From positions 1-64,000 of the forward strand of contig NZ_KB894435.1 of the NCBI RefSeq assembly GCF_000374445.1: a stretch of DNA of 64,000 nucleotides, given 5' to 3'. Positions 10,217 to 40,940 of this stretch are shown here, piece after piece (position 1 is the stretch's first letter; the number at the start of each line of letters is the position of its first letter). Source of the DNA: Actinokineospora enzanensis DSM 44649. Lineage in GTDB: Bacteria > Actinomycetota > Actinomycetes > Mycobacteriales > Pseudonocardiaceae. A program made the position numbers and the translations under genes. The notes under the pieces were generated by a model. The model searched no databases and was not told the DNA's origin. It saw only the letters and a list, made by a program, of their open reading frames with translations.

Positions 10217-10244
10217 CCCGGAGCCCTCCCGATCCCACCCGAAC

Positions 10245-10263
10245 TTAAGTAAGGCAATCCTTA
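10245..10263. promoter_or_regulatory. Degenerate iron box upstream of the ABC pair
   Basis: TTAAGTAAGGCAATCCTTA matches 14 of 19 consensus positions and keeps near-perfect dyad symmetry. It lies 29 bases upstream of the first ABC half-transporter, so weaker binding by the same iron regulator is likely. Confidence 0.6.
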
Positions 10264-10296
10264 CTTGTCGCCCGTTCGAGTGTCAATGTGACCGGC

Positions 10297-11334
10297 TCAG
10301 CGCCGACGCCACTCGGACGCCAGCAGCCACGCGAGGTAGACACCGCCGAGCGCGGCCGTGGCGACGCCCACCGGCAGCGCGTTCTGGCCGAACACCCGTT
10401 GCGATAACACGTCGCCGCCCAACAACAACGCCGACCCCATGGCCGCGGCGGGTAGTAGTGCGGGACCGGCCGAGCCCGCGAGCCTGCGGGCCAACTGTGG
10501 GGCGGCGAGCGCGACGAAGGTGATCGGCCCGGCGGTGGCGGTGGCCACGGCGGTCAACGCGACACTCACCACGACCAGCGTCAACCGGGCGGGCTCCACC
10601 CGGACGCCGAGCATGGTGGCGGTCTCGTCGCCCATCTCCAGCAGGTTCAGCTTCCGGCCAAGCACGACGGCCGCGGGCAGCAGCACGCCCAACGCGATCG
10701 CCATCGGCACGACCTCCGACCAGCCGCGGCCGTTGAGGCTGCCGACCAGCCACACCTGCGCCGCCTGCGCCTGCCGCAGCCCGGCGCGGGTGAGCATGTA
10801 GGTGTTGAGCGAGCCGAGCACGGCCGTCACGCCGATGCCGATCAGGATCAGCCGGTAGCCCTGCACACCCGTGCGGTAGGCCAACCCGTAGACGAGCACG
10901 GCCGCGACGATGCCGCCGACGATCGACCCGAGCGCGATCTGGGCGACGCCGCCGCCGAAGACGATCAGCACGAGGATCGCGCCGGTGGCCGAGCCGCTGG
11001 AGAAGCCGATCAGGTCGGGGCTGCCCAACGGGTTGCGGGACAGGCTCTGGAAGATCGCCCCGCTGACGCCGAGCGCGGCACCGACCAGGATCGCGACGGC
11101 CAGGCGGGGCAGGCGCAGGTCGTAGACGACGTACTCCTGACCGCCGGTGCCCTCGCCGTTGAGGGTGTTGACGAGCTGGTCGAGGGTCAGGTGGAAGTCG
11201 CCGGTGAACAACGCCAGCACGGCCAGGCCCGCGACGGCGATCAGCAGCGCCAGCACGACGATCACGCCGCGCGGGTGGGCGCGGAAGGAGACACCGGCGG
11301 CGCGGACGGGCGTCCCGGTCACCGACCTGGTCAC
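10297..11334 (-). CDS. FecCD-family siderophore permease (FepG-like)
   Basis: A 345-residue polytopic permease of the FecCD/BtuC type, which forms the channel of ferric-siderophore ABC importers. It has about ten hydrophobic helices and the conserved blocks LRLPRL, GAALGVSGAIFQSLSRNPL and GPITFVALAAPQLARRL. The GTG chosen overlaps the stop of the preceding permease as GTGA; more upstream starts would lie within that gene. A TTA codon is at 10405. No substrate-binding protein or separate ATPase follows, so those subunits must be encoded elsewhere. Confidence 0.92.
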   Translation of the reverse strand: MTRSVTGTPVRAAGVSFRAHPRGVIVVLALLIAVAGLAVLALFTGDFHLTLDQLVNTLNGEGTGGQEYVVYDLRLPRLAVAILVGAALGVSGAIFQSLSRNPLGSPDLIGFSSGSATGAILVLIVFGGGVAQIALGSIVGGIVAAVLVYGLAYRTGVQGYRLILIGIGVTAVLGSLNTYMLTRAGLRQAQAAQVWLVGSLNGRGWSEVVPMAIALGVLLPAAVVLGRKLNLLEMGDETATMLGVRVEPARLTLVVVSVALTAVATATAGPITFVALAAPQLARRLAGSAGPALLPAAAMGSALLLGGDVLSQRVFGQNALPVGVATAALGGVYLAWLLASEWRRR

Positions 11335-12350
11335 AGGTGAGCCAACTTCCGCCGCCTGCACAGCGCGATGAACACGGGCGCGCCCACGAACGCGGTGATG
11401 ATCCCGACCTCCATCTCCCGCGGCGAGATGATCACCCGCCCCACGACGTCGGCACCGAGTAGTAGTACCGGGGCCAGGACGGCACTGAACGGGAGCACCC
11501 ACCGTTGGTCGGGGCCGGTGAGCGCGCGCGCCATGTGCGGCACGGTCAACCCGATGAACGCGATCGGACCCACGGCAGCCGTGGCCGCCCCGCAGAGAAG
11601 GGTGATCGCTGTCGCGCAGCCGAGGCGGACAAGACCGAGGTTCACACCCAACGCGCGCCCGGTCTCGTCACCCAGCGCGAGTGCGTTGAGCGGACTCGCC
11701 AGGAGGGCCGCGACGAGCAGACCGATGAGGACGAACGGCAGGACCCAGAGCACGACACCGAGATCACGCCCGTCGAGCGAGCCGATCTGCCAGAACCGGA
11801 ACTGCTGGAACGCGGCCGGATCGAGCACGAGCGTGGCGGCGACGAAGGCACCGAGCGTGGCACTGATCGCGGCGCCTGCCAGGACCATGCGCTCCGGCGT
11901 GACCGCGCGGCCGGTGGACCCGAGCACGTAGACGACGACGGACGCGACGGCGGCGCCGAGGAACGCGAACCAGATGTAGCCGCCGACACCGGTGATCCCG
12001 AAGAACGCGATGGCCGCGACAACGGCCGTCGACGCACCGATGTCGACGCCGAGAAGGGCCGGGTCGGCCAGCGGGTTGCGGGTCAGCGACTGCATCAGGG
12101 CACCCGCGACGCCCAGGGCCACGCCGACCATGAGGCCGATGAGGGTCCGGGGGATGCGGCGGTCCCAGATGATCGTGGCCTCGTCGCCGGCGGGGAGGGC
12201 GCCGGTCAGGACGCGCCAGGCGGTGTCGAGGGGGATGGACCGGGAACCGATGGCGATGCTGAGCAGGCAGACGATGGCGAGGACGGCGAGGGCCAGGACC
12301 AGCCAGGTCAGGCGGCGCACACGGGGCTGCGTCGATAACGCCACGAGCAC
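11331..12350 (-). CDS. FecCD-family siderophore permease (FepD-like)
   Basis: A 339-residue FecCD permease, partner of the next gene. It shows RRIPRTLIGLMVGVALGVAG, the QSLTRNPLADP loop, and GPIAFIGLTVPHMARAL, the usual site of contact with the ATPase. The GTG start is 16 bases after an iron box, which predicts very short leader RNA and repression by iron. Codon 5 is TTA (12336-12338), the typical early position of bldA-dependent codons in Streptomyces genes. Confidence 0.92.
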   Translation of the reverse strand: MLVALSTQPRVRRLTWLVLALAVLAIVCLLSIAIGSRSIPLDTAWRVLTGALPAGDEATIIWDRRIPRTLIGLMVGVALGVAGALMQSLTRNPLADPALLGVDIGASTAVVAAIAFFGITGVGGYIWFAFLGAAVASVVVYVLGSTGRAVTPERMVLAGAAISATLGAFVAATLVLDPAAFQQFRFWQIGSLDGRDLGVVLWVLPFVLIGLLVAALLASPLNALALGDETGRALGVNLGLVRLGCATAITLLCGAATAAVGPIAFIGLTVPHMARALTGPDQRWVLPFSAVLAPVLLLGADVVGRVIISPREMEVGIITAFVGAPVFIALCRRRKLAHL

Positions 12351-27696: not shown

Positions 27697-28287
27697 TCAG
27701 GCGCGCACGGACCGTTCGACCTCGGCCAGGAACGCCCCGAACGCCCGGGGCATGTCCACCCGGTCGGGGTCCAGCAGCCATTGCTGCTGCAGGCCGTCCA
27801 TCACCGCGAACAGTCGCTGCGCGCACGCGAGCGTGTCCAGGTCGGCCTTCAGCTCGCCCGCCTCGACACCCGCCCGCAACGAACGGTCCGCGTGCTCTAT
27901 CAGCCGCCGATAACGCTCGCGCGCCCACTCGCGCGCGGGGTGGCCGTCGGTCACCGCCTCGCCGTTCAGCACGGTGAACAGCTGCACCAACCCCGGCACG
28001 CGCGAGTTGAAGTCGACCAGCGCCCGCAGGTCGTCGAACAGCCTGGGCCAGGGCGTGACCCCGTCCAGGTCTATCCCGATCCGCTGCCCGTCGCGTTGGT
28101 CGCGCTCGTGCAGCACGGCGATCAACAGCTCGGCCTTGCCCGGGAAGTGGTGGAGCAGACCGGGCTGGGTGATCCCGGCCCCGTCCGCGATGCGCGCCAA
28201 CGACGCGCCCCGGAACCCGAACGCGGTGAACTCCTGGAACGCGACCGCGATGATCCGCTCGCGCCGGGCGTCCCCTCGTGCAACCAC
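27697..28287 (-). CDS. TetR-family regulator
   Basis: 196 residues with an N-terminal TetR HTH (IIAVAFQEFTAFGFRGASLARIADGAGITQPGLLHHF, residues 12-48 by position) and a divergent helical ligand domain. GTG start. It reads away from the esterase gene; the 112-base spacer has relatively AT-rich sequence that should hold both promoters, so the esterase is the likely target. Confidence 0.9.
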   Translation of the reverse strand: MVARGDARRERIIAVAFQEFTAFGFRGASLARIADGAGITQPGLLHHFPGKAELLIAVLHERDQRDGQRIGIDLDGVTPWPRLFDDLRALVDFNSRVPGLVQLFTVLNGEAVTDGHPAREWARERYRRLIEHADRSLRAGVEAGELKADLDTLACAQRLFAVMDGLQQQWLLDPDRVDMPRAFGAFLAEVERSVRA

Positions 28288-28399
28288 GTCGGCACCCTAT
28301 CGAGCGGGGGAAATGTAACGTCAACATAACAAACCTACTGATTACTCGGTTGGCTTCCTACTGTAGGGCAGATCCCCGTCGAGGCAAGGAGTTCTTCCG

Positions 28400-29287
28400 A
28401 TGGACCTGATCTGGCCCCCACCGCCCTACCGGCCGCCCACCCCCGCGCGCGTGACCGAGGACGGCACGCGGTTCTTCGACGGACTCATGTACTCGGCGAA
28501 CCCCGGATACCGTCCTGTGCTGCTGGACGTGCACGTGCCCGCCGTTGCCGAGCCGCCTCCGGTGGTGGTGTGGATTCACGGGGGCGCGTGGCTGGAGGGG
28601 GACCGCCGGTTCCCACCGCCGACGGTCAGTGCGGACTCACTGTTCGGGGGGCTGTTGCGGGCGGGGTTCGCGGTGGTGACGGTGGATTACCGACACAGCG
28701 CGGAGGCTGTCTTCCCGGCGCAGCTGCACGACGTGAAGGCGGCGGTGCGGTACGTGCGGAAGTTCGCCGGGTTGCTGGGGGTGGACGGATCACGGATCGG
28801 CGTGTGGGGGGAGTCGGCCGGTGGACATCTCGCGGCGCTGGTGGGACTGACCGGGCCTGGACGGCTTGAGGGAGAGGTAGGTGTGCCCGGTGACGACAGC
28901 GGTGTTGCGGTGGTCGTCGACTGGTATGGGGTGTCGGACCTTGCACTGATCGCCGCGTCGGGGCGGCCGTTGGACCCTGGTATGCCCAATCCGGAGCGGG
29001 AGTTGGTGGGCGGGTCGGACGCGGAGTGGCCCGCGTTGGCGGCGGCGGCGAGTCCGGTGACGTATGCGGATCGGGTGGGGCCGCCGTTTCTGCTGATGCA
29101 CGGGACGGGGGATACGACGGTGGGGTTCGCGCAGAGCGAGGCGCTGGAGCGGCGGCTGCGGGAGAGCGGGACGTCGGTGACGTTGCGGCCGGTGGTGGGG
29201 GCGGATCACATCTTCCTGGGGGTGGAGGACGTGGACGCGCTGGTCGCGGAGAGCATCGCTTTCCTGACGGAGCACCTGGCGCGGTAG
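28400..29287 (+). CDS. Alpha/beta hydrolase, hormone-sensitive-lipase type
   Basis: 295 residues. The oxyanion motif HGGAW is at 60-64, the nucleophile Ser139 is in WGESAGG, the Asp is in HGTGDTTV near 236 and the His in ADHIFLG near 267. There is no signal peptide, so it should be a cytoplasmic esterase for short acyl or carbamate esters. An AAGGAG site precedes the ATG. It is divergent from TetR and probably regulated by it. Confidence 0.88.
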   Translation: MDLIWPPPPYRPPTPARVTEDGTRFFDGLMYSANPGYRPVLLDVHVPAVAEPPPVVVWIHGGAWLEGDRRFPPPTVSADSLFGGLLRAGFAVVTVDYRHSAEAVFPAQLHDVKAAVRYVRKFAGLLGVDGSRIGVWGESAGGHLAALVGLTGPGRLEGEVGVPGDDSGVAVVVDWYGVSDLALIAASGRPLDPGMPNPERELVGGSDAEWPALAAAASPVTYADRVGPPFLLMHGTGDTTVGFAQSEALERRLRESGTSVTLRPVVGADHIFLGVEDVDALVAESIAFLTEHLAR

Positions 29288-29306
29288 CTGTCGAGCGGCG
29301 GGGCCC

Positions 29307-29422
29307 GGCTGTGGATGGCTCGACCGCCTGTGGACAGGCTTCGGGGGATCCCCGGATTTCCATTCTCCCAGGCCACGCGGGGACGGGACAAGCCGACGAC
29401 GCCCGGCCCTGTGGACAACCGG
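29307..29422. repeat. Intergenic repeat, family 1 copy 2, with one DnaA box
   Basis: Same order of elements as at 12528-12645: GGCTGTGGATGG, CTGTGGACAGGC, a GGGGATCCCC palindrome, an ATTTCCATTCT block, and CTGTGGACAACCGG at the end. It fills the 207-base gap after the esterase gene. The exact TGTGGACAA is at 29410. Confidence 0.75.
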
Positions 29423-29494
29423 CCGGGATCCCCGAGGTCCGGCCCAGGGCAGGGAGCGGAGGGTGCCGGTCCGGGCCGTGGACGACTCCCGAGG

Positions 29495-30520
29495 CTACAA
29501 GGTGATCATGGTGACGCCGGTGCCCAGGGCGTTGCCCATCGCCGTCAGGGCCGAGGGCGCCTGGTCCAACGAGATGGTGCGGGTGATGAGGTCGGCGGGT
29601 CGGAGGGTGCCCGCGCTGACCATCGACATCAGTTCCGGGTAGGCGTGGGCGGGCATGCCGTGGCTGCCGAGGACGGCCAGTTCGTGGGCGATCACGCGGG
29701 CCATCGGGACCGGTGGGTCCGTGGGGAGCAGGCCCACCTGGACGTGCCTGCCGCGCCGACGGAGGCAGAGGATCGAGGCGGCGCAGGTGGCGGGGCTGCC
29801 CAGGGCGTCCAGCGACAGGTGGGCGCCGCCGCCGGTGAGGTCGTGGATGGCGGTGGGGATGTCGACCGTGGTGACCGGGTTGAGGCAGACGGCGCCGAGG
29901 GTGGCGGCCAGGTCCAGGGCGGTCTGGGAGATGTCCACGGCCACGACGCGCGCGCCCGCCGCCACGGCCACCGCGACGGCGGAGAGGCCGACGCCGCCGC
30001 AGCCGTGGACGGCGACCCATTCGCCGGGGGCGACGCGGCCCTGGGCGATCACCGCGCGGAAGGAGGTGGCGACGCGGCAGCCGAGGCCCGCGGCGGTGGT
30101 GAAGGAGATGTCGTCGGTGAGGCCGACCAGGTTGACCTCGGCGTCCTCGACCGCCACGTACTCGGCGAACGAGCCCCAGTGGGTGAAGCCGGGCTGGGTC
30201 TGCCGCTCGCACACCTGCTGGTCGCCCGCCGCGCAGGCCGCGCACCGGCCGCAGGCGCAGACGAACGGGACGGTGACCCGGTCGCCCTCGTGCCAGCGGG
30301 TGACGCCGGGGCCGACCGCGGCGATCGTGCCCGCCAGCTCGTGGCCGGGGACGTGCGGCAGGCGGATGCCCGGGTCGTGGCCGATCCAGCCGTGCCAGTC
30401 GCTGCGGCACAGGCCGGTGGCCGCGACCCGGATCACCACGCCCCTGGCCGACGGGGTCGGATCGGGCACCGACTCGACCCGGGGATCCACGCCGAACCGC
30501 TCGAACACCACCGCGCGCAC
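29495..30520 (-). CDS. Zinc-dependent alcohol dehydrogenase (MDR family)
   Basis: 341 residues. Catalytic zinc ligands are Cys38 and His60 with Glu61; the structural-zinc cysteines are at 90, 93, 96 and 104. The NAD(P) fold has [11 protein letters not shown]. It should oxidise an alcohol or reduce an aldehyde in the cytoplasm. It is separated by about 80 bases from the SGNH esterase upstream, so it may be the second gene of that transcript. Substrate unknown. Confidence 0.92.
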
Positions 30521-30601
30521 CCGACCACCCCTGTCGCCGAACCACCAGGACCGGGTCCAGGATTCGGCCAGGCGCGCGCGTCGGTCAAGACGCCGGGCCG
30601 G

Positions 30602-31597
30602 TCACGAACCCGCGACCGCCTGGATGGCGTCCGCGATCGCGGCGTGCCCTCGGCTGTTCGGGTGCACCAGCGACCACCCGCCGGACCGGTCGGTGATCCC
30701 CTCGACCCAGTTCTTGCCATCCGGCTGGCACACGTCGTGGCCGGTGCTGATCGCGTAGGTGTCGACGTACCGCGCGCTGTGCGCCTGCGCCTGCATCGCC
30801 AGCACCAGGTTGAGCCGCTCCAACACGTCCGTGCGCAGCCACACCAGGTCCGGCCGGGTCGCGGTGGCGAAGTTCTTCAACGCCGCCGGGTCGGTGCCGT
30901 GCACGCAGGTGCCCGGATCGTCCGGGATGATCTTCGGGTAGCCGACCACCAGGATCCTGGCCCCGGGCGCGTTCGCCTGGATCGCCGCGAGCAGCTCGCC
31001 GAACTGCTCACTCACCTGCGTCAACCGCTCGTCCACAGTGGGCACGCCGTCGGCCCCGCTGGTGAAGTAGTCCTTGCACGGCGCGTCCGCGTCCTCGTCC
31101 GCCCACTCCCCCAACTGCAAACATGCATACAGCAACTCGGCGAACCCGAAGGTGTTGCCGCCGATCCCCACCGTCACCAGGTTCGTGCTCTCCGACAGCG
31201 CGCTGATCTGCGGCGGCACCGGCGTGAACGGGTAGTCGGGGTCCACCACGTCGAAGAACGGCAGGTTGTACCCGTTCGGCACCTGCTCCTCGTCCAGCAC
31301 GTTCGCGATCGTGGCACCCGCGCAGCTCACGTTGGTGAGGTCGTACTTGCCCTCCCACCGCTGCCGCAACACCTCCGGGTACGAGCCCACCGTCCGCACG
31401 CACCCGTCCCGCTGCCCGCCGGAGGACACCTCGACCCCGGCGGCCGGGATCGCGCCCGCCGCATAGGAGTCCCCGAACGCCACCCACTGCAACGACGCTT
31501 GCCGAACCGGCGCCGCACTGGCGGTCGGCACCACGACACCGAACCCGGCGACCACGGCCGCGACGACGGCGGTCAACCGGATATGGACACGCGACAT
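30602..31597 (-). CDS. Secreted SGNH/GDSL esterase
   Basis: 331 residues with a Sec signal ending near ASA-AP (residue 29). The SGNH blocks are present: FGDSYAAG with Ser44, NVSCAGAT (block II Gly), GIGGNTFGF (block III Asn), and HPNSRGHAAIADAI with the catalytic His near 312. Paired cysteines suggest disulfides, as in the Streptomyces exported lipase with this fold. A CCGAGAGG site is in front of the ATG. Extracellular lipase or esterase. Confidence 0.92.
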   Translation of the reverse strand: MSRVHIRLTAVVAAVVAGFGVVVPTASAAPVRQASLQWVAFGDSYAAGAIPAAGVEVSSGGQRDGCVRTVGSYPEVLRQRWEGKYDLTNVSCAGATIANVLDEEQVPNGYNLPFFDVVDPDYPFTPVPPQISALSESTNLVTVGIGGNTFGFAELLYACLQLGEWADEDADAPCKDYFTSGADGVPTVDERLTQVSEQFGELLAAIQANAPGARILVVGYPKIIPDDPGTCVHGTDPAALKNFATATRPDLVWLRTDVLERLNLVLAMQAQAHSARYVDTYAISTGHDVCQPDGKNWVEGITDRSGGWSLVHPNSRGHAAIADAIQAVAGS

Positions 31598-32281
31598 CGG
31601 ATTCACCTCTCGGGGAAAGTCCGCCGCCCCGGAGAGGGCGGCCCGGGAAAGTCGTACCGTCTTCCGCTCCGTCGACGCCAGCGGTCTCACCCGGGCCGGT
31701 GACGGCCGTGGATCATTGCACGAGCCAAAGGGGGGACAATAAACGAACGCCACCGCCCCACGCAGAGCGCGTCCCAGGCCCACCGGGCCACACCACGCGG
31801 ACACACAGTCAGGCCGACCGCCGCCACGCAAACGACACTCGGCACGCCTGCCTACGCTTTCATCCGTCCCCGAAGCCCTGTTCTCGATTGGCCGGAGAAT
31901 ATCGAAAAAAGGCGTGGAAGGGATTCCGGGCACTGCTCCGAACCGGTCCACGACAAGGCGGGCGGGACCATCCGCGACGGCTTGTGTCCACAATGGACCT
32001 CTCGGTGCCAACCGAGCCGCGAGAGGGGTCTGGGCATAGGCCGCTCTCGCGGCCCGGTTGGTACTTGTCGGTCGTACCGCTCGGTGGCGGTCTGCGGGGT
32101 CGAACCCTGTGAACGCGGGACACGGTAGAAGAAGTCGTGCGGCGCGGGATACCTCCGAATGGCGCAAGACATCCCCGGTCGCCCGGCCGGACATGACGGA
32201 TCCGACCGAGCGCCGGGATCGGCTACGGGCGAAAGTCCTCAACATGGGACCGTCCACGGCAGGCAGATCGATTCAGTGGTG
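31598..32281. other. 684-base gap without a convincing gene
   Basis: Lies between the 3' end of the three-gene radical SAM operon and the 5' end of the SGNH esterase gene. Small frames on both strands lack start context and family similarity. It holds the esterase leader, an AT-richer patch around 31905-31920 and a long hairpin at 32005-32064. Confidence 0.6.
32005..32064. repeat. Long inverted repeat (24-base arms, 12-base loop)
   Basis: The arms 32005-32028 and 32041-32064 pair at 21 of 24 positions. Both contain the core CCGCGAGAG and its complement CTCTCGCGG. No run of T follows, so a simple terminator is not obvious. It could fold as a structured RNA or be the remnant of a small palindromic element. 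Confidence 0.7.
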
Positions 32282-32896
32282 TCAAAGACATGTTTCCCAA
32301 CGTTCACCCCGGCGCATCCACAGTGGACGGGTGACCGGGCTCGCCTCGGTGGGGTCGAACAGCACCGGGGCCGGGGTGACGTGGACCAGCAGCGCCTCGT
32401 GGTAGACCTCGTGGTCGGACAATATCCAGTCGTGCGGATATCCCGCCGTGCGCCAACGGGCGCGCCAGAGCGTGGTTTCCTCCGGCGCGGCGCGTTCGAC
32501 CAGTTGGACGCGGTCGACGCGCAGGCCCCGTTCGGTGAGCAGCTCGGCGGCCAGACAGGCGAGCACGCCGCAGTCCAGGGTGCGGGTGGTGGGGATGTCG
32601 CACCAGGCCAGCGGCCAGGGGTTGGGGCCCCAGGCGAAGTAGCGGAACAACCAGTCCAGGCCGAAGGTCGTGACGTCCGCCCGCCGGGCGGGGGTGGCGC
32701 AGGCGCGGTCGTGCGCCAGCAGCCAGGAGCGGACGTCGGCGCAGGGCGGGCAGGAGTGGTGCGTGGTGAGGCGGGCAGGTGGGTGGGTAGGTACAACAGC
32801 AGGTGGGTGGGTAGGTACAACAGCAGGTGGGTGGGTGGGTACAACAGCGGGTGGGTGCGTAAATGTGACAGCGGACGGGTGCGCTGGGGAGATCAC
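32282..32896 (-). CDS. Transglutaminase-like protein with octapeptide-repeat N-terminus
   Basis: 204 residues, not recognised as a named family. The GTG start overlaps the stop of the ATP-grasp/decarboxylase gene (GTGA), which argues that the frame is real. Residues 14-40 are repeats of PTHPPAVV. A CPPC pair follows at 49-52. The C-terminal 130 residues have Cys109 in LDCGVLACLAAELL, His166 in VYHEALLV and Asp181 in LFDPTE. Their order and spacing fit the Cys-His-Asp triad of transglutaminase-like thiol enzymes (proteases, amidases, acyltransferases). No signal peptide. Likely role: release or transfer of an acyl product made by the two upstream enzymes. Triad assignment is inference from pattern. 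Confidence 0.65.
   Translation of the reverse strand: MISPAHPSAVTFTHPPAVVPTHPPAVVPTHPPAVVPTHPPARLTTHHSCPPCADVRSWLLAHDRACATPARRADVTTFGLDWLFRYFAWGPNPWPLAWCDIPTTRTLDCGVLACLAAELLTERGLRVDRVQLVERAAPEETTLWRARWRTAGYPHDWILSDHEVYHEALLVHVTPAPVLFDPTEASPVTRPLWMRRGERWETCL
32777..32872. repeat. 24-bp tandem repeat (three copies plus one diverged)
   Basis: Units start at 32777, 32801 and 32825; the first two are identical and the third differs at one base. A fourth unit (32849-32872) has diverged. Each unit is eight codons and encodes Pro-Thr-His-Pro-Pro-Ala-Val-Val on the minus strand. Codons such as GTT, GTA and CCT are rare in this genome, which suggests a recent expansion. Confidence 0.9.
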
Positions 32897-35163
32897 GGGC
32901 GCACCCCGAAGCGGTAGCTCATGCCCGCGTCGTACGCGCCCGCGTCCAGGAACAGGACGTGGTCCCCGGGGGCCAGCGCGGCGGGCAGGGCGACGCCCTC
33001 GCGCGGCTGGTCGTGCTCCATGCACAGCCTGCCCAGGATCACCTCGTCGCCGGGGCCAAGGCGCCGCCAGGACCCGCCCCGGCGGCGCCACAGCACCCGG
33101 TGCGGGTGGGTGACCCAGTCGGGCAGCTCGGCGACCGAGGCGTCCACCACGGCAGCCCGGCCGGACGGGTCCTCGCGCACGTCCAGGACCGTGGCGAACA
33201 CCGCCATGGCCCGCTCCACCAGGAACTTCCCCGGCTCGAACAGGATCTCCTCCAGCGGGCCCAGCTCGCGGACCGCGACCCGGGCGGCGCGGCCGAGCAG
33301 GCCGCCGAGCACCGCGCGGGAGGTGCCGGGTACCCAGCCGCCGCCCAGGTCGACGCAGCTCACGCGGGTGTCGGTGCGGGCGCACAGGTCGGCGGCGACG
33401 GTGATGGCCGCGGTGAACTCGCGCAGCCACACCCGGGGGCCGATGCGGCTGGCGGCGTGGTGGAAGTGCAGGCCGAGGCGCGACACGGCGGCGGCACGCA
33501 GCGCGTCGGCGACCCGCCGGTAGGTGACCGGGTGGGTGACGTCGACGCCGAAGCGGGAGGTCAGGTCGCTGGGGGCGAGCCGCAGGCCGAGCACGTCGGT
33601 GTGCACCAGGCCGCGGCCGACCAGGTCGACGGTGCGCTCCAGGTCGGTGAGCGAGTCGCAGAACACGGCGCCGAACTTGGTGGGGCCGCCGTCGAAGCGC
33701 CACCACTTGGCCGGGCCGGTGAGCACCACGTGGTCGGCCGGGAACCCGGCGTCCGCGCAGAACGCGGCCTCGGACTGGGAGATCACCTCGACCAGCGCGC
33801 CGCGCCGCAGCACGGTGTCCAGGACGCGCCGGTCCGGGTTCGTCTTGACCGAGTAGGCGAAGCGGGTGCGGACGCCGGTCGCGTGCGTGACGTCCTGGCA
33901 CACGCCGGTCAGTACGTCCATCGCGCGGCGCAGCGCCCCCGGGAACAGCACGCGCGCGGGTGAGACGCCCGGGTCGACCGGCAGCGCGGCGGCGACGTCG
34001 CGCGCGGTCTCTTCATCCGGTTCGCCGGTTTCCGCGTGCGGGACCGGGGTGACCAGCCGCCGGGCGAGGACCGGCATCTCCGACGGGTGCTTCCCGCTGG
34101 CGGGCACCGGCGGTGTCACACGGGCGGCGGCGGTGAGCACGGCGGCGGTGCGCGGGGTCACCGGGATCTCCTCCACGGTCCGGACGAACCCGCTCGCGTA
34201 CGCCTTCTCCTTGCCCTGCTGGGTGATCCCGGTCGCGGCGGCCACGAGCCGGGCGGGCAGGTTGGCGCCGGTGAGTGTCGCGCCGTGCACCCATGCCGGG
34301 AAGCGCGGGTTCACCTCCAGCAGATAGCGCTCCCCGGTCCGGGTGTCGCGCACGATCTCGACCTCTCCCCCGCCGGTCCATCGCGTGGCGCGCGCGAACT
34401 CCGTCACGCGGCGCAGTCCGTCCGCCCGCACCGGTTCGACGGTTCCCGCCCAGGTCTTGCCTTCCTCGGTCACCATCGTCTTGCGCATGGCGCGCGCGCC
34501 CAGCAGTTCACCGTCGAGCGCGGCGAACACCACCGATTCCTCCACTCCGGCGATGTGCCGTTGCACCAACACGTCCTCGTCCCCCCAGGTGGCGCGGATA
34601 TGCCCCAGAGCGTTGAACAACTCCACGCGCGTTGTGGCGAATACCGCCTGATAGCGCGACCCCTTCACCCACACCTGCCAGCCGTGCGCGGCCGCGAACT
34701 CCGCGGCTTCCTCGATCCCACCGACCCGTCGGTACTCCGGCACGGACAGGCCGAGCAGTTCCGCGGCACCCACCCCGGGTTTGACCACGAGCGCGAACGC
34801 GGCCGCGGGGGGCAGCAACAGCGCGGGGTGTCCGGGGTGGTGGGTGGCGAGCAGTCCGGCCTCCAGGTCCAGTCCCGGCAGGAACACCGCCCCCGAGGAC
34901 TCCACGATGGACACCAGACCCGAGCACAGCCCCGCCAGGTCCGCGGTGTCCCAGCCGGGTCTGATGTGCACGCGGTCGAACACGGTGGCGCTCAGGCCGG
35001 TGGCGCGCGGCGAGTAGTCCAACGCCGAGAGCCACAGCCGCGGCCACGCCAGCCTCAGCGACCGTGCCAGGCCCAGCCCCGGCGACGGATTGGGTCCACT
35101 ATGGACTCCGGACAGCACGACCGCGGGCAACCCGCGCGGTGCGGCGGACACGGTGCCAGACAA
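32893..35163 (-). CDS. ATP-grasp ligase fused to a PLP-dependent decarboxylase
   Basis: 756 residues with two enzymes in one chain. The N-terminal part (to about 330) is an ATP-grasp domain: VWVKGSRYQAVFA, EDVLVQRHI, a glycine-rich GGGEVEIV and YLLEVNPRFPAW with metal-binding Glu and Asn. The C-terminal part (about 400-756) is a fold-III PLP enzyme of the ornithine/diaminopimelate decarboxylase group: Schiff-base Lys440 in AYSVKTNP, LHFHHAAS, DLGGGW, and Cys714 in GRLCMEHD followed by DAGAYDAGMSYRFG. All catalytic residues look intact. The TTG start is chosen for its GAGAGG site, nine bases after the radical SAM stop. The nearest known parallel is the BtrJ (ATP-grasp)/BtrK (decarboxylase) pair of butirosin synthesis, which is not fused. 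Confidence 0.85.
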   Translation of the reverse strand: MSGTVSAAPRGLPAVVLSGVHSGPNPSPGLGLARSLRLAWPRLWLSALDYSPRATGLSATVFDRVHIRPGWDTADLAGLCSGLVSIVESSGAVFLPGLDLEAGLLATHHPGHPALLLPPAAAFALVVKPGVGAAELLGLSVPEYRRVGGIEEAAEFAAAHGWQVWVKGSRYQAVFATTRVELFNALGHIRATWGDEDVLVQRHIAGVEESVVFAALDGELLGARAMRKTMVTEEGKTWAGTVEPVRADGLRRVTEFARATRWTGGGEVEIVRDTRTGERYLLEVNPRFPAWVHGATLTGANLPARLVAAATGITQQGKEKAYASGFVRTVEEIPVTPRTAAVLTAAARVTPPVPASGKHPSEMPVLARRLVTPVPHAETGEPDEETARDVAAALPVDPGVSPARVLFPGALRRAMDVLTGVCQDVTHATGVRTRFAYSVKTNPDRRVLDTVLRRGALVEVISQSEAAFCADAGFPADHVVLTGPAKWWRFDGGPTKFGAVFCDSLTDLERTVDLVGRGLVHTDVLGLRLAPSDLTSRFGVDVTHPVTYRRVADALRAAAVSRLGLHFHHAASRIGPRVWLREFTAAITVAADLCARTDTRVSCVDLGGGWVPGTSRAVLGGLLGRAARVAVRELGPLEEILFEPGKFLVERAMAVFATVLDVREDPSGRAAVVDASVAELPDWVTHPHRVLWRRRGGSWRRLGPGDEVILGRLCMEHDQPREGVALPAALAPGDHVLFLDAGAYDAGMSYRFGVRP

Positions 35164-35172
35164 GGCGTCCTC

Positions 35173-36480
35173 TCACTGCCCCAGGGCGAAGTAGGCGGCC
35201 AGGCGCGCGTCCTCGCGCACCCGCAGCTCCGACCACAGCGCCTCGTACTCGGGGCGCGGCAGCTCGGAGTAACCGTCGTTGTGGTCGGAGTAGTCCTGGA
35301 AGGCGGTCGCGCTCAGCTCGGCCGCGGACATCCGGGCGCGACCCGCCGCGACCGCGCCGCGCTCGCCGAGCGGCGTGCGCGGCAGCGGGTAGTAGCGGTA
35401 GGCGTCGAAGGCGAGCCGGGGCACGGCGTCGATCAGCGCCAGGGTCTCGCGGGCCTGCGCGGCGCCCTCCCCCGGCCAGCCGATGCCGATCGAGGCGCGG
35501 ATCACGAACCCCAGGTCCATGGCCCGGTTGAGCACCTCGGCAGGCGGCCGCCGCAGCGACCCCTTGGCCAGCCTGCCGCGGGTGGCCGCGGCGGCCGACT
35601 CGACGCCGACGTAGAGGGCGCGGAACCCGGCCCGGTGCATCGTCGCGAGCAGGTCCGGATAGCGGTCCAGATCGGTCAGCTGCGCGTCGCAACCGAACCG
35701 GAATGGACTGCCTTCGGCGATCTGGCGCGCGCAGAAGTCGCGAACCCGGACCTGTCTCGCGTCGATGAAACAATCGTCTACGAAGTAGAACCCACGTGCG
35801 CCGGTGACGTCATTGAGCGTGTGCAGATCCACGTGCAGTTTCGGCGCCGACACATACCGGAAGCGCGCGCCCGGGTACTGGGCGTTGAGATAGCAGAATG
35901 TGCAGCGGCGAGTGCAGCCACGCGCGGAGGCGACGTGCAGTCCGGGCACGCCCATGTTCGGCCAGTACCTGCCCGGACTCACGTAGTCGGACAACTCCGG
36001 CCACCAGCTCGGCACACCGACCTCGTCCAGGTCGGGTGGCTCGTGTCCCTCGATGAGCCCGGCGGGCCGGGGGCGGGCGGCCAGCCAGGACACCAGCGCC
36101 TGCTCGCCGTCGCCGCGGAACAACGCCGACACACCGCGCCAGATCGGGGCTTCCGGGTCGGGGAACGTGCTGACCAGCGGTCCGCCCGCGACCACGGGCA
36201 GGTCCGGGTCGACCGCGGTCAGGTGGTCGACGGCGGCCCGGAACCGGCGGGCGCCGACGCCCTGCTTGGCGGTCAGCCCGACCACCGTGGGCCGGGTGTC
36301 CGCGAGCGCGGCGTCCAGGCTCGCGGCGAGGTCGGCGCCGTTGAGGTCGAGCGCGCGCACCTCGTGCCCGGCGGCGCGCAGCGCGGCACCCAGGCACAAC
36401 ACGCCCCACGGCGGAAATGCGACGGGATTGCCGTCGTCGTGGATCCCCGGGTGCGCTAGCAGAACCCGCTCACGGTCCAT
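35173..36480 (-). CDS. Radical SAM protein with N-terminal B12-binding-like domain
   Basis: 435 residues. Residues 1-150 resemble a cobalamin-binding Rossmann domain (PPWGVLCLGAALRAAGHEV, VVGLTAK, VVAGGPLVSTFPD) but lack the DxHxxG cobalamin ligand. The radical SAM domain has Cys189, Cys193 and Cys196 in GCTRRCTFC and the later blocks FYFVDDCFIDA, ALYVGVESA and RASIGIGWPGEG. It should cleave S-adenosylmethionine to start a radical reaction. First gene of the operon with the ATP-grasp/decarboxylase and the transglutaminase-like protein. Relatives act as methyltransferases, cyclases or C-C bond formers; the exact reaction cannot be named. Confidence 0.88.
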   Translation of the reverse strand: MDRERVLLAHPGIHDDGNPVAFPPWGVLCLGAALRAAGHEVRALDLNGADLAASLDAALADTRPTVVGLTAKQGVGARRFRAAVDHLTAVDPDLPVVAGGPLVSTFPDPEAPIWRGVSALFRGDGEQALVSWLAARPRPAGLIEGHEPPDLDEVGVPSWWPELSDYVSPGRYWPNMGVPGLHVASARGCTRRCTFCYLNAQYPGARFRYVSAPKLHVDLHTLNDVTGARGFYFVDDCFIDARQVRVRDFCARQIAEGSPFRFGCDAQLTDLDRYPDLLATMHRAGFRALYVGVESAAAATRGRLAKGSLRRPPAEVLNRAMDLGFVIRASIGIGWPGEGAAQARETLALIDAVPRLAFDAYRYYPLPRTPLGERGAVAAGRARMSAAELSATAFQDYSDHNDGYSELPRPEYEALWSELRVREDARLAAYFALGQ

Positions 36481-36525
36481 GCGACTCCCTTCACCACATC
36501 GCGCATCGGGGGCGGGCAGACCCCT

Positions 36526-36542
36526 GTTACCCATTCCGTAAC
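36526..36542. promoter_or_regulatory. Inverted repeat in the radical SAM operon promoter
   Basis: GTTAC, seven bases, then GTAAC, lies 46 bases upstream of the radical SAM start. It is in a 309-base gap shared with the divergent Ada-AlkA gene. A repressor or activator site is plausible; no regulator gene is adjacent. Confidence 0.4.
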
Positions 36543-36789
36543 CCTGTACTCGATCCGGTGACACCCTCGATCACACGTTGTCATCGGGTATTGCGGTCGA
36601 CGACGGGAACCATTTCGGGAACCGCCGCCGAAGCCTGACCGGGTGTGACGGGAATGCGTCATGCCACTGGGCCGAAAGGGTATTCCCGGCCCGCGGCGAT
36701 CATCGTTCGCAGCGGACGCCCACCGGGAGTCGACCATCGTGTCGTTTTCTCGCTGGTACGGGCCGCCCGCGCGAGCGATGCTGGACGTC

Positions 36790-38250
36790 ATGCACTCCGA
36801 CACCGAACGGTGCGTCCGCGCCGTCCAGTCCAAGGACGCGCGGTTCGACGGCTGGTTCTTCACCGCCGTGCTCACGACCCGGATCTACTGCAGGCCGAGC
36901 TGCCCCGTGGTGCCGCCCAAGCCGCACAACATGCGGTTCTACCCGAGCGCGGCCGCCGCGCAGCAGGCCGGTTTCCGGGCGTGCAAGCGGTGCAGGCCGG
37001 ATGCCACGCCCGGCTCGCCGCAGTGGAACGAGCGCGCCGACCTGGTCGGCCGGGCCATGCGGCTGATCGCCGACGGCGTGGTGGACCACGGCGGGGTGCC
37101 CGCGCTGGCCGCCCGGCTGGGCTACAGCGTGCGCCAGGTCGAGCGGCAGCTGCGCGCGGAGCTGGGCGCCGGTCCGCTGGCCCTGGCGCGGGCCCAGCGC
37201 GCACAGACCGCCCGGGTGCTGATCGAGACCAGCGCGCTGCCGATGACCGAGGTGGCCATGGCCGCGGGGTTCGGCAGCATCCGCACGTTCAACGACACGG
37301 TCCGCGAGGTGTTCGCCCTCTCCCCCACCGACCTGCGCAGACGCTCGGCGGGCCGGGACCGGCCGACGATCGGCGAGCTGTCCGTGCGGCTGCCGTTCCG
37401 GGCGCCGCTGTGCCCGGACAACCTGTTCGGCCACCTCGCCGCCACCGCCGTGCCCGGGGTCGAGGAGTGGCGGGACGGCGCCTACCGCCGCACCCTGCGC
37501 CTGCCGCACGGGCACGGCGTGGTGGGCCTGCGGCCGCTGCCCGAGCACATCCGCTGCGACCTCGCCCTGACCGACCTGCGGGACCTGTCGGTGGCGATCA
37601 GCCGGTGCAGGCGGCTGCTCGACCTGGACGCCGACCCGGTCGCGGTGGACGAGCTGCTGGCCCAGGACCCGGCGCTGACCGCGCTGGTGGCCAAGAACCC
37701 GGGCAGGCGGGTGCCGCGCACGGTCGACGGCGCGGAGCTGGCCGTGCGCGCGGTGCTCGGCCAGCAGGTGTCCACCCAGGCCGCGCGTACGCACGCGGGC
37801 AGGCTGGTCGAGGCGCACGGCGAGCCCGTCGCCGACCCCGGCGGCGGCCTGACCCACCTGTTCCCGGAGACGGCCGCGCTCGCCGAGCTGGACCCCGAGC
37901 GGCTGGCCCTGCCGCGCAGCCGCCGCACCACCCTGACCGGCCTGGTCGCCGCGCTGCCCCGGATCGACCTGTCCCCCGGCGGCGACCGGCAGGCCGCCCG
38001 CGACGACCTGCTCGCGCTGCCCGGCATCGGCCCGTGGACAGTGGAGACGGTGGCCATGCGCGCGCTCGGCGACCCCGACGCGTTCCTGGCCAACGACCTG
38101 GGCATCCGCCTCGCCGCCGAGCACCTGGGCCTGCCCACCACCCCCGCCGGGCTCACCGCCCGCGCGGCGGCCTGGCGGCCCTGGCGCGCCTACGCCGTGC
38201 AGTACCTGTGGGCGACGAGCGACCACCCCATCAACATCCTGCCCGTCTGA
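36790..38250 (+). CDS. alkA: Ada-AlkA fusion: methylphosphotriester acceptor, AraC HTH and DNA glycosylase
   Basis: 487 residues from the chosen ATG; an in-frame ATG twelve bases earlier is possible. Domain order: an Ada zinc domain with Cys34, Cys38, Cys65 and Cys68 (Cys34 being the methyl acceptor), an AraC-type HTH at about 80-195 (GGVPALAARLGYSVRQVERQ), and an AlkA glycosylase with its helix-hairpin-helix LLALPGIGPWTVETVAMRAL and the catalytic Asp in FLANDLGIR near 436. It removes alkylated bases and also works as the methylation-activated transcription factor for the ada regulon. The start is chosen because family members begin MHxDxxxCxxAVQSKDARFDGWF. Confidence 0.93.
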   Translation: MHSDTERCVRAVQSKDARFDGWFFTAVLTTRIYCRPSCPVVPPKPHNMRFYPSAAAAQQAGFRACKRCRPDATPGSPQWNERADLVGRAMRLIADGVVDHGGVPALAARLGYSVRQVERQLRAELGAGPLALARAQRAQTARVLIETSALPMTEVAMAAGFGSIRTFNDTVREVFALSPTDLRRRSAGRDRPTIGELSVRLPFRAPLCPDNLFGHLAATAVPGVEEWRDGAYRRTLRLPHGHGVVGLRPLPEHIRCDLALTDLRDLSVAISRCRRLLDLDADPVAVDELLAQDPALTALVAKNPGRRVPRTVDGAELAVRAVLGQQVSTQAARTHAGRLVEAHGEPVADPGGGLTHLFPETAALAELDPERLALPRSRRTTLTGLVAALPRIDLSPGGDRQAARDDLLALPGIGPWTVETVAMRALGDPDAFLANDLGIRLAAEHLGLPTTPAGLTARAAAWRPWRAYAVQYLWATSDHPINILPV

Positions 38251-38272
38251 ACCATCTGTCGAAAGGAAGCCA

Positions 38273-38794
38273 GTGACCACCCCCGTCCGGCTCGCCGAGC
38301 CCGGCCCCGGTCCCACCCGCTACACCACCGTCGGGTCCGTCATCGGCGAGCTGCTGCTGACCGGCGACGGCACGTCCCTGACCGGCGTCTACATGGGCCT
38401 CGACCACCGGCACTTCACCGGCATCGGCGCCGACTGGGTGCCCGACCCGGCCCCGTTCCGCGCGGTCGCGGCCCAGCTGGCCGCCTACCTGGCGGGCGAG
38501 CTGCGCGAGTTCGACCTGCCGCTGGCGCCGCGCGGCACACCGTTCCAGCGCGAGGTGTGGACGGCACTGACCACCATCCCGTGGGGACACACCACCACCT
38601 ACGGCTCGCTCGCCCACCGGCTGGGTCGCCCGACCGGGTCACGCGCGGTCGGCATGGCCAACGGCCGCAACCCGGTCTCGATCGTCATCCCCTGCCACCG
38701 GGTCATCGGCGCCGACGGCTCGCTCACCGGCTACGGCGGCGGCCTGCCGCGCAAACGCCACCTGCTGGCGCTGGAGGGACTCACGCTCGTGTGA
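38273..38794 (+). CDS. ogt: Methylated-DNA-[protein]-cysteine S-methyltransferase
   Basis: 173 residues with the suicide motif PCHRV (Cys141), preceded by GRNPVSIVI, and the HTH segment IPWGHTTTYGSLAHRLGRPTGSRAVG. It repairs O6-methylguanine by irreversible transfer to its Cys. GTG start with GAAAGGAAG in front, 22 bases after the Ada-AlkA stop, so the two form an adaptive-response operon. A short 3' portion of the N-terminal domain is normal for this length class. Confidence 0.96.
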   Translation: MTTPVRLAEPGPGPTRYTTVGSVIGELLLTGDGTSLTGVYMGLDHRHFTGIGADWVPDPAPFRAVAAQLAAYLAGELREFDLPLAPRGTPFQREVWTALTTIPWGHTTTYGSLAHRLGRPTGSRAVGMANGRNPVSIVIPCHRVIGADGSLTGYGGGLPRKRHLLALEGLTLV

Positions 38795-38863
38795 ACCCAC
38801 GCACGGACACGCGGTACACGGGCCCGCATCGGGTACGCCCCTCTGCGACGGAGGGAGGTCCCG

Positions 38864-39967
38864 GTGTCCGAGACCTGGACGCGGACCGCGACCGCGCTCG
38901 CGGTCTACGCGGTGTTCCTGCTGGTCGAGCGGCTCGCCCTGCGCGCGGTGCGCGGGCTGGGCAGACGCGCGGTGGTGCTGTCGTCGCTGTCGGAGCACAC
39001 CCGCGCGCCGCTGCGCTGGTTCATGGCGGCGGTGGTGCTGTGGTCGACCGTGCGGGAGGTGCTGCCGCACGCGCTCGACCACCTGCTGTCGTTGGCGTTG
39101 ATCGCCACCGGCGCGTGGCTGCTGGCCGGGACTCTGGTGTCGGTAGAGCACACTGTGCTGTCGCGGCTGCGGGTGAACGAGCGGGACAACCGGCACGCGC
39201 GCCGCATGCAGACCCAGATCACCCTGGTCCGCAGGGTGACCGTGGCGGCGGTCGCCGCGCTGGCGTTCGCCGCGATGCTGATGACGTTCCCGGCGGCGCG
39301 CACGGCGGGCACCAGCCTGCTGGCCTCGGCGGGGGTCATCGGTGCGATCGCCGCGTTGGCCGCGCAGTCCCTGCTGGGCAACGTGTTCGCCGGGCTGCAG
39401 ATCGCGTTCAGCGACGCGATCCGGTTGGACGACGTGGTCATCGTGGAGGGTGAGTGGGGGCGGATCGAGGACATCACGCTCACCTACCTGGTCGTGCACA
39501 TCTGGGACGACCGGCGGCTGGTGATCCCGACCGCGCGGTTCATGTCCCACCCGTTCGAGAACTGGACCCGCCGCGAGGCCGCGCTACTCGGCACAGTGGA
39601 ACTCGATGTGGACTGGGCGATGCCCGTGGACCGGATGCGCGCGGAGCTGCGGCGGATCGTGGAGGACAACACGGAACTGTGGGACGGCCGGGTGTGTGTC
39701 CTGCAGGTGACCGAGGCGGTGCACGGCATGGTCCGCGTGCGGGCGTTGATGAGCGCGGCGGACGCGCCGACGTTGTTCGACCTGCGTTGTCTGGTGCGGG
39801 AACGGTTGGTGGCGTGGACAACCAGCGAACACCCCTACGCGGTTCCCCGCCTGCGCACCGAACCCGTCGGGCACGGTCCGCGCCACCACGAGGAGGCCGA
39901 ACCGGACCGGTTGTTCGGCGACACCCCGGACGGGCGTAAACGAGTTCACGCGTTCAGCGATCACTGA
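38864..39967 (+). CDS. MscS-family mechanosensitive channel
   Basis: 367 residues: four N-terminal membrane helices, the pore-lining TM3-like segment with alternating Gly and Ala (SAGVIGAIAALAAQSLLGNVFAGLQIAFSD by position 160-190), the beta domain (IRLDDVVIVEGEWGRIEDITL) and a C-terminal cytoplasmic alpha/beta cap. It opens under membrane tension to release solutes in osmotic downshock. GTG start behind GGAGGT. It lies downstream of ogt on the same strand, probably with its own promoter. Confidence 0.93.
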   Translation: MSETWTRTATALAVYAVFLLVERLALRAVRGLGRRAVVLSSLSEHTRAPLRWFMAAVVLWSTVREVLPHALDHLLSLALIATGAWLLAGTLVSVEHTVLSRLRVNERDNRHARRMQTQITLVRRVTVAAVAALAFAAMLMTFPAARTAGTSLLASAGVIGAIAALAAQSLLGNVFAGLQIAFSDAIRLDDVVIVEGEWGRIEDITLTYLVVHIWDDRRLVIPTARFMSHPFENWTRREAALLGTVELDVDWAMPVDRMRAELRRIVEDNTELWDGRVCVLQVTEAVHGMVRVRALMSAADAPTLFDLRCLVRERLVAWTTSEHPYAVPRLRTEPVGHGPRHHEEAEPDRLFGDTPDGRKRVHAFSDH

Positions 39968-39980
39968 TACAACCGTCCAC

Positions 39981-40940
39981 ATGCCCTACACCCATGCGAG
40001 TCCCCACAATGAAGGCATGCTCGACGTCGGCCAGGGCAACCGGATCCACTGGTCGGAAGTCGGGAATCCCCAGGGCAAACCGGCGCTGGTCGTGCACGGC
40101 GGTCCCGGCAGCGGCGCCAACCCTCGCAGCGCGGAGTTCTTCGACCCCGCGCGCTACCGCGTGATCTCCTACGACCAGCGCGGCTGCGGGCGCAGCACCC
40201 CGCACGCGAGCGACCCGGCCACCGATCTGGCGCACAACACCACCCACCACCTCATCGCCGACATGGAGCTGCTCCGCGAGCACCTGGGTGTCGACCGCTG
40301 GCTGGTGTCCGGCGGCTCCTGGGGTTCCACGCTCGCGCTCGCCTACGCGCAGGCGCACCCGGCGCGGGTCAGCGAGATCGTGCTGTCCGGCGCCACCACC
40401 ACGTGCCGCCGCGAGGTGGAGTGGATCACCGGCGGCGTCGGCCGGTTCTTCCCGGAGGCCCTGGAACGATTCCGCGCGGGCGTGCCGGAGTCCCTGGGCG
40501 ACCACGGCGACAACATCGCGGGCGCGTACGCGCGGCTCATGAACGACCCCGACCCTGCGGTGCGCGAGAAGGCGATCGACGACTGGACCGCCTGGGAGGA
40601 CACGGTCATCTCCCTGGAACCGAACGGGGACCCGGCCGCCTACAGCGCCCGCCCGCGCGACGACCTGCGCGCGATGGTCCGGCTGGTGACCCACTACTGG
40701 GGCGCGGCGGCGTTTCTGGGAGAGGACCAGATCCTGCGCGAGGCGCACCGGCTCGCGGGTATCCCGGGCGTGATCCTGCACGGCAGACACGACCTGGGCG
40801 GGCCCGTGGAGGTGGCCTGGAACCTGGCGAGGGCCTGGCCGGACGCGGAGCTGATCGTCGTCGAGGACTCCGGACACACCGGCAGCGACGAGTTCCATCG
40901 GCGCAAGCAGGAGGTCATGGACCGCTTCGCGGACCGCTGA
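39981..40940 (+). CDS. pip: Prolyl iminopeptidase (S33)
   Basis: 319 residues. HGGPGSG at 39-45, YDQRGCGRSTPH, nucleophile Ser113 in GGSWGS, Asp in HGRHDLGGP near 270 and His in DSGHTGSDE are the family marks. It removes N-terminal proline from peptides in the cytoplasm. It starts 13 bases after the MscS gene. A weak GACCC/GGGTC hairpin overlaps its stop and that of the convergent gene. Confidence 0.95.
   Translation: MPYTHASPHNEGMLDVGQGNRIHWSEVGNPQGKPALVVHGGPGSGANPRSAEFFDPARYRVISYDQRGCGRSTPHASDPATDLAHNTTHHLIADMELLREHLGVDRWLVSGGSWGSTLALAYAQAHPARVSEIVLSGATTTCRREVEWITGGVGRFFPEALERFRAGVPESLGDHGDNIAGAYARLMNDPDPAVREKAIDDWTAWEDTVISLEPNGDPAAYSARPRDDLRAMVRLVTHYWGAAAFLGEDQILREAHRLAGIPGVILHGRHDLGGPVEVAWNLARAWPDAELIVVEDSGHTGSDEFHRRKQEVMDRFADR

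Follow-up and report, generated by a model that had tools for sequence, protein, structure and literature searches.

An ATP-grasp/decarboxylase fusion and its transglutaminase-like partner point to an unstudied small-molecule pathway in actinomycetes

Organization of the operon

We analyzed a 64,000-nucleotide stretch of contig NZ_KB894435.1 from Actinokineospora enzanensis DSM 44649, called the window below, and focused on three genes that lie head to tail on its minus strand. The first encodes a radical S-adenosylmethionine (SAM) protein, the second a fusion of an ATP-grasp half with a fold-III pyridoxal phosphate (PLP) decarboxylase half, and the third a small protein with a candidate Cys-His-Asp triad, referred to here as the thiol protein (Table 1). 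Translation of the window confirmed the layout described in a first-pass annotation of this DNA. The radical SAM and fusion genes are separated by 9 bases, the fusion and thiol protein genes overlap by 4 bases, and the fusion is a single chain that carries the key residues claimed for it. For all three genes, the two closest pairs within the genus have ratios of nonsynonymous to synonymous substitution rates of 0.12-0.20, and the other pairs listed have ratios of 0.18-0.49 (0.25-0.49 save one at 0.18). These values indicate purifying selection on all three genes.

Consistent with the first-pass annotation, no carrier-protein domain was found at an expectation value (E) of 1e-5 in the 10 genes nearest the operon. 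No Rfam family reached its gathering score across positions 28000-40000 of the window. An anti-phage defence system was ruled out, as no PADLOC-DB defence profile matched at E 0.001 among five proteins.

Table 1. Features of the operon in the window
Feature	Position	Strand	Basis and remarks
Cobalamin-binding-domain radical SAM protein, 435 residues	35173..36480	-	Translation; Pfam; accessory gene in Actinokineospora
Radical SAM cluster motif C189-x3-C193-x2-C196	35893..35916	-	Invariant in 7 of 7 aligned homologues
ATP-grasp/fold-III PLP decarboxylase fusion, 756 residues, TTG start	32893..35163	-	Translation; homologues
ATP-grasp half, residues 1-342	34138..35163	-	Profile match to PDB 2pn1; K167, E283, N285, R287
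Decarboxylase half, residues 386-756	32893..34008	-	Profile matches to 7kh2, 2p3e, 7ru7
Codon of PLP lysine K440	33844..33846	-	Present in 10 of the 11 fusions aligned; changed in locus L013
Transglutaminase-like thiol protein, 204 residues	32282..32896	-	Start overlaps end of fusion gene by 4 bases; structure model, Foldseek
Codon of candidate nucleophile Cys109	32570..32572	-	Cys109 present in 11 of the 12 homologues aligned

The two halves of the fusion

The first half of the fusion can safely be assigned to the ATP-grasp kind from its matches to NCBIfam families of the PRK12767 type and to PDB entry 2pn1, and the scores are modest. The Pfam family ATPgrasp_Ter scores 26.7 bits, just under its cut-off of 29.1 bits, and the PRK12767-type matches fall far below theirs. 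A nine-row profile of this half, which leaves out the loci L013 and L077 described below, has a single match in the PDB at E 0.01, the carbamoyl-phosphate-synthase-like 2pn1 (E 7.7e-6). The window fusion contains K167, E283, N285 and R287. We take E-x-N-x-R to be the metal motif, and the Lys to be the ATP-binding residue, of ATP-grasp ligases.

The second half matches the Pfam decarboxylase N domain (E 3.1e-10), and its C-terminal sheet domain scores 18.5 bits, below the 23-bit cut-off. A ten-row profile, without L013, matches N-citrylornithine decarboxylase best (7kh2, E 5.4e-32). The next matches are the diaminopimelate decarboxylase LysA (2p3e, E 3.5e-28), other LysA structures and then BtrK (7ru7, E 5.3e-26). 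The likeness to butirosin synthesis that was proposed earlier thus stands in part: the half is related to BtrK, but FigC/FslC matches best, with LysA second and BtrK third. FigC is grouped with SbnH, AcsE, MccE, BtrK, diaminopimelate decarboxylases and D-ornithine decarboxylase in the available part of its description (PMC7857480).

Residue marks of the FigC/BtrK clade of fold-III decarboxylases for conjugated amino acids, namely the PLP lysine, the stacking His, the glycine loop, the EPG motif and the catalytic Cys, are present in the window protein. Each of the residues K440, H568, G607-G608, E643-G645 and C714 occurs in 10 or more of the 11 fusions aligned, and L013, which is eroded, is the exception; this alignment leaves out the fusions of L008, L009 and L010. 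In addition, the loop C714-M715-E716-H717-D718 is the C-M-x-H-D loop of FigC. Within it, C714 and D718 are kept in 10 of the 11 fusions, M715 in nine and H717 in eight, one of these eight being L013. H717 is replaced by E, N or S in three homologues from outside the genus, and BtrK has Thr in place of M715.

PLP-dependent decarboxylation requires a free α-amine and a free α-carboxylate. An amino acid that served both halves would therefore have to be attached through its side chain. The FigC-like loop argues for a substrate conjugated at the side-chain end.

The thiol protein

No Pfam family matches the 204-residue protein at E 1, and a search with 11 members of its family gave one stray match in one member, at E 0.29. 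The model of residues 41-204 has a mean predicted local distance difference test (pLDDT) score of 90.2 and a predicted template modeling score of 0.85. It was obtained from an 11-row alignment with five divergent rows, which leaves out the thiol protein of Streptomyces zaomyceticus. An earlier model of the whole protein from six close rows only had a pLDDT of 41 and was discarded; the divergent rows cured this.

Foldseek ranks the putative cysteine protease 3isr first in the PDB (E 5.6e-3, probability 0.99, TM-score 0.45). Further matches are the endoisopeptidase PeiP (8z4f, TM-score 0.53), TglA (9crn) and a transglutaminase (4xz7), and after them come arylamine N-acetyltransferases and geldanamycin amide synthase. 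At E 1 and above, the list also includes unrelated folds, menin among them. The matches are weak but consistent, and suggest a transglutaminase-like fold. A viral fold library gave no match at 0.001; its best models are of the same kinds and also weak. A search for viral copies found 36 stretches that fit a pattern, none of which was confirmed.

In the model, helix 109-122 begins with Cys109, strand 163-172 contains His166 and strand 178-181 ends with Asp181. A Cys on a helix followed by His and Asp on strands is the usual order in the transglutaminase-like superfamily. The three residues lie where the first-pass annotation had placed them, and among 12 aligned thiol proteins Cys109 and His166 are each kept in 11 and Asp181 in all 12. 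A thiol enzyme coupled behind the fusion is plausible from these residues and the predicted fold. The N terminus of the window protein carries PPAVVPTH repeats, encoded by a 24-base tandem repeat (positions 32775-32861, 3.6 copies, 93% matches) and absent from the aligned relatives.

The kind of reaction is harder to read from the fold. The protein may be an acyltransferase, or it may instead cleave off a protecting or carrier group as a hydrolase or peptidase, which we consider possible if somewhat doubtful. The protease 3isr and the endoisopeptidase 8z4f are among the top folds, and fold alone cannot discriminate. However, N-acyltransferases and an amide synthase are found in the same list, and a dedicated, coupled gene suits acyl transfer as well.

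Conservation within Actinokineospora

A full-length fusion is found in 8 of 16 Actinokineospora genomes, including that of the window. The thiol gene is present in six of the 16, in each case directly downstream of the fusion. The proposal of a thiol acyltransferase candidate coupled behind the fusion is therefore upheld as to a plausible thiol enzyme and an adjacent gene, but not for the remaining two fusion holders (G002 and G011). In 297 genomes of the family, no other match spanning both halves of the fusion was among the matches listed, best first. Hits in G043, G237, G231 and contig G000:C35 cover one half only or have low identity, and were kept out of all alignments.

The genus loci also have flanking genes in common, encoding an Ada/AlkA repair protein, a GDSL hydrolase and a zinc alcohol dehydrogenase. 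Conservation within the genus alone thus does not count as independent evidence. A pair of FecCD-type permease genes lies 5-8 kilobases (kb) behind the operon in L001 (18617-20610), L002, L004 (where the stretch ends inside the second gene) and L038 (252-2263), with other genes between. The window has such a pair at 10306-12242, about 20 kb behind the operon. None was found in the L003, L005, L037, L039 and L040 stretches or in six loci from outside the genus. These permeases are the only hint of iron and may reflect plain synteny.

Several other features were noted around these loci. In L001 (12847-13824), no more than about 100 bases separate the thiol gene from a downstream gene of the same orientation that encodes a DJ-1/PfpI and AraC-type regulator. 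Similar genes were seen by eye in L004, L037 and L039, in the last behind the fusion; none was seen at this place in the window. Window positions 32111-32168, about 58 non-coding bases that separate the operon from the gene for the GDSL hydrolase, have no Rfam match and are matched at 76-79% in 7 of 9 Actinokineospora stretches compared (6 of 7 distinct loci). The window's own genome encodes a second fold-III decarboxylase of 785 residues (L067 5323-9439, contig G000:C35), which adjoins an 83-residue carrier-like gene and adenylating-enzyme-like genes, as judged by eye. In L064 (53-2702, contig G043:C179), a separate relative of the decarboxylase half (33%) overlaps an adenylating-enzyme-like gene near the contig start.

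The radical SAM gene

The 435-residue protein contains a B12-binding domain (Pfam, 8.7e-14) and a Radical_SAM domain (1.9e-9). Together with its CxxxCxxC motif, these are the features of cobalamin-dependent radical SAM enzymes, and are shared with PhpK, ApyD and other families. Its scores against curated NCBIfam B12 radical SAM families are far under the cut-offs (70.1 versus 600 bits for the PhpK P-methyltransferase family, and 69.6 versus 750 for another). The gene is present in 7 of 16 Actinokineospora genomes (E 1e-30), with homologues 74-76% identical to the window copy, and stands directly upstream of the fusion in seven of the eight genomes with a full-length fusion.

No radical SAM relative was found beside the fusion and thiol genes outside the genus, in 19.5-30 kb of each of six loci (tblastn, best E 0.077; whole presumed-Streptomyces genomes were not searched). 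A core role for this gene was therefore ruled out, and radical modification, one of the steps in the first-pass annotation, is not part of the core chemistry. From its distribution, the gene looks like an add-on of Actinokineospora, probably gained within the genus.

Conservation outside the genus

Further sets of genomes were scanned with a thiol protein profile. The larger scans score only 8-17 candidates per genome, and absences are soft. Among 298 genomes of the order, one more was found, G349 of another family; the other 23 genomes of that family gave none. Only the window's own protein was found in 396 genomes of the phylum, and only the centre genome's own in 194 genomes of the class. 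Four of 375 genomes of a presumed Streptomycetaceae family contain it. Separately, a protein search of 72,556 plasmid records revealed a single full-length fusion, which is carried by a linear Streptomyces zaomyceticus plasmid (NZ_CP108525.1). A thiol gene follows it, and both are annotated as hypothetical proteins.

The fusion gene is followed by the thiol gene in all six of these outside loci (G349, the plasmid and four presumed Streptomyces genomes). The coding regions overlap by 4 bases, or by 8 in G1112. Outside gene starts come from a crude gene caller, and that of the L074 fusion was probably called too late. Five of the six loci came from searches with the thiol protein by itself, which means that the searches did not favor adjacency, and all five have the fused form. 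A chance neighbourhood, the objection that the first-pass annotation had raised against itself, is ruled out by this. The gene order that it proposed to look for elsewhere holds for the pair but not for the radical SAM gene.

The genus is set apart from the outside loci in the fusion tree. The presence of the thiol gene in every outside relative makes an ancestral origin probable, with later loss in G002 and G011. As judged from the genomes compared, the conserved core is the fusion with the thiol protein, a portable pair whose company changes.

The genes next to the outside pairs were also recorded. In three of the four presumed Streptomyces genomes, the next gene after the thiol gene, 16-85 bases away, encodes a urea transporter (PF03253; 2e-79 in G1011; L074 7776-8759, L075 8045-9028, L076 10161-11144). 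The transporter is the only one in G1142, and a second is present in G1011 and G1278. The thiol gene of the S. zaomyceticus plasmid is followed, after 55 bases, by a gene of the membrane fatty-acid-desaturase type (L069 16905-18422). In G349, the gene upstream of the pair has a weak TIR-domain match (L060 12044-13474, E 0.0019, below cut-off).

Natural losses of catalytic residues

We tabulated nine ATP-grasp and 14 decarboxylase residues in 11 fusions, and the three triad residues in 12 thiol proteins. Two loci stand out. In L077 (G1112), all nine ATP-grasp residues are changed, one of them from Glu to Asp, and the thiol protein lacks the Cys and the His. Eleven of the 14 decarboxylase residues are kept, the changed ones being K646 (to Arg, as in L060), M715 and H717. 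The ligase and thiol steps thus seem to have gone together in this lineage. Such a joint loss is expected if the ATP-grasp half and the thiol protein work on the same bond. The altered thiol gene of L077 is overlapped by 4 bases by a gene for a 605-residue protein of the Cys/Met-metabolism PLP family (10182-11999), whose match is just over the cut-off (E 1.4e-6).

In L013 (G008), changes affect four of nine ATP-grasp and nine of 14 decarboxylase residues, and all that is left of the radical SAM gene is a 42-residue remnant.

Relation to known systems

Two known systems follow a similar logic. In rhizoferrin synthesis, FigA and FigC (FslA and FslC) also ligate and then decarboxylate, and the C-M-x-H-D loop is shared with the fusion. 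However, the rhizoferrin ligase is a separate protein, a nonribosomal-peptide-synthetase-independent siderophore (NIS) synthetase, whereas the fusion is one chain with an ATP-grasp half; neither a thiol protein nor a radical SAM partner is mentioned in the available text of that study (PMC7857480).

The butirosin proteins BtrJ, BtrK, BtrI and BtrH combine an ATP-grasp ligase, which is BtrJ, a fold-III decarboxylase and a cysteine-type transacylase in one pathway. They are separate proteins working on a carrier, unlike the single 756-residue chain in the window. The dedicated acyl carrier protein that marks butirosin synthesis was not found among the 10 genes nearest the operon, and carriers may be encoded elsewhere in the genome. 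BtrI, BtrJ and BtrK take part in making the butirosin side chain, according to the available part of PMC11405602.

The Anbu operon, which comprises ATP-grasp, alphaE, transglutaminase-like and Anbu proteins in the part of PMC6376114 available, has the pairing of ATP-grasp and transglutaminase-like proteins in common with the window set. In contrast, neither alphaE nor Anbu is present among the three operon genes and their 10 neighbours, and a PLP decarboxylase is found instead.

Ligation followed by decarboxylation is also used in coenzyme A synthesis. There a single polypeptide, CoaBC, joins an amino acid to an acid and decarboxylates the product, with a flavin decarboxylase and folds unrelated to those of the fusion.

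No description of such an ATP-grasp/decarboxylase fusion, and no characterized pathway containing the set, was found in the openly licensed literature searched. In our best account, the window set works like FigA/FigC or BtrJ/BtrK/BtrH and belongs to neither system, because its genes encode no NIS synthetase domain and no carrier was detected among the 10 genes closest to it.

A proposed pathway and its alternatives

We tentatively favor, at close to a coin toss, a single-chain fusion that ligates and then decarboxylates an amino acid attached through its side chain, with a thiol partner that transfers or releases the product. The analysis shows the genes, their joint conservation, the key residues and the folds predicted for the proteins; each chemical step, the order of the steps and the substrates are inferred. 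The ATP-grasp half would activate a carboxylate with ATP and couple an amino acid to its partner through the side chain, leaving the α-amine and the α-carboxylate free. The decarboxylase half would then form a PLP Schiff base on the α-amine and remove the α-carboxyl group while the conjugate stays with one protein. A conjugate held in this way would expose no free basic amine and need no carrier protein. The thiol protein would take the acyl group as a thioester through its triad, then transfer or release it. In Actinokineospora, the B12-type radical SAM enzyme would add a further change, perhaps C-methylation.

Several observations weigh against this pathway. The ATP-grasp half matches general families only, at modest scores. 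LysA, which acts on a free amino acid, ranks ahead of BtrK for the other half. No PDB match of the thiol protein model reaches E 0.001, and the query-length TM-scores of the top four are 0.45-0.53. The thiol gene is missing from two genomes whose fusions keep their catalytic residues, so the thiol step is not always needed. The triad of L013 is intact despite the eroded fusion, which weakens the argument from joint loss unless the decay is recent. L077 is a single case on a long branch (1.45), and L013 is likewise single. Finally, no precursor or carrier gene was found beside the window operon.

A broader version of the favored pathway is more speculative. The pairs may form a carrier-free pathway class, an ATP-grasp/PLP counterpart of CoaBC with its own transglutaminase-like acyltransferases that act on the same bond, in which the decorating enzyme is swapped (radical SAM or membrane desaturase). 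One lineage, that of L077, would have shed the ligase and thiol steps, with a cystathionine-synthase-like enzyme attaching the amino acid instead.

It is unlikely that the set works as in butirosin synthesis, with an amino acid loaded on a phosphopantetheine carrier encoded elsewhere, decarboxylated there and handed to an acceptor by the thiol protein. BtrK is among the nearest solved decarboxylases, the second fold-III decarboxylase of the window genome stands beside a carrier-like gene, and BtrH-type transacylases are placed in the papain-like fold (PMC2922099, in its available part). However, the nearest genes encode no carrier domain, none was noticed among the predicted genes of the outside loci (read by eye, not scanned with profiles), and the catalytic-Cys loop is like that of FigC and not of BtrK.

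The FigC-like loop, the first rank of FigC and the FecCD-type permeases, a family that imports iron complexes, would suit a product resembling a siderophore or another polycarboxylate conjugate. The ATP-grasp half would then take the NIS synthetase role and join a diamino acid to a carboxylic acid, the decarboxylase would act as in rhizoferrin synthesis, and the thiol protein may release or recycle the product. This is rather less likely still: Pfam finds no NIS synthetase domain in the operon, several genes separate it from the permeases, these were not found in five genus stretches or the six outside loci, H717 varies in three homologues, and a urea-transporter gene as the next gene in three outside loci does not suggest a siderophore.

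The two halves could also act on unrelated substrates, the fusion merely ensuring co-expression, as one half of L077 has lost its catalytic residues and the other keeps most of them. We consider this improbable. The fused form was present in every locus found through the thiol protein, and the extra PLP-family gene coupled to the pair in L077 could supply another conjugate. Tailoring of a ribosomal peptide precursor is very improbable, even though radical SAM and ATP-grasp enzymes occur in such pathways, since the two flanking gaps contain no clear conserved small coding stretch and no radical SAM relative was found beside the pair in the six outside loci; with only scattered short tblastx matches in the gaps and no Rfam match in positions 28000-40000, a ribosomally synthesized and post-translationally modified peptide precursor and an RNA element were set aside.

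Significance

The gene set points to an unstudied small-molecule pathway. Ligation followed by decarboxylation hides a reactive amine, and is used to make siderophores and aminoglycoside side chains. If the favored pathway is true, a natural single chain that needs no carrier would offer simple catalysis for producing amides of decarboxylated amino acids. Since the thiol partner is outside the Pfam families searched, save for the one stray match, the set would be a tractable entry to undescribed actinomycete metabolites.

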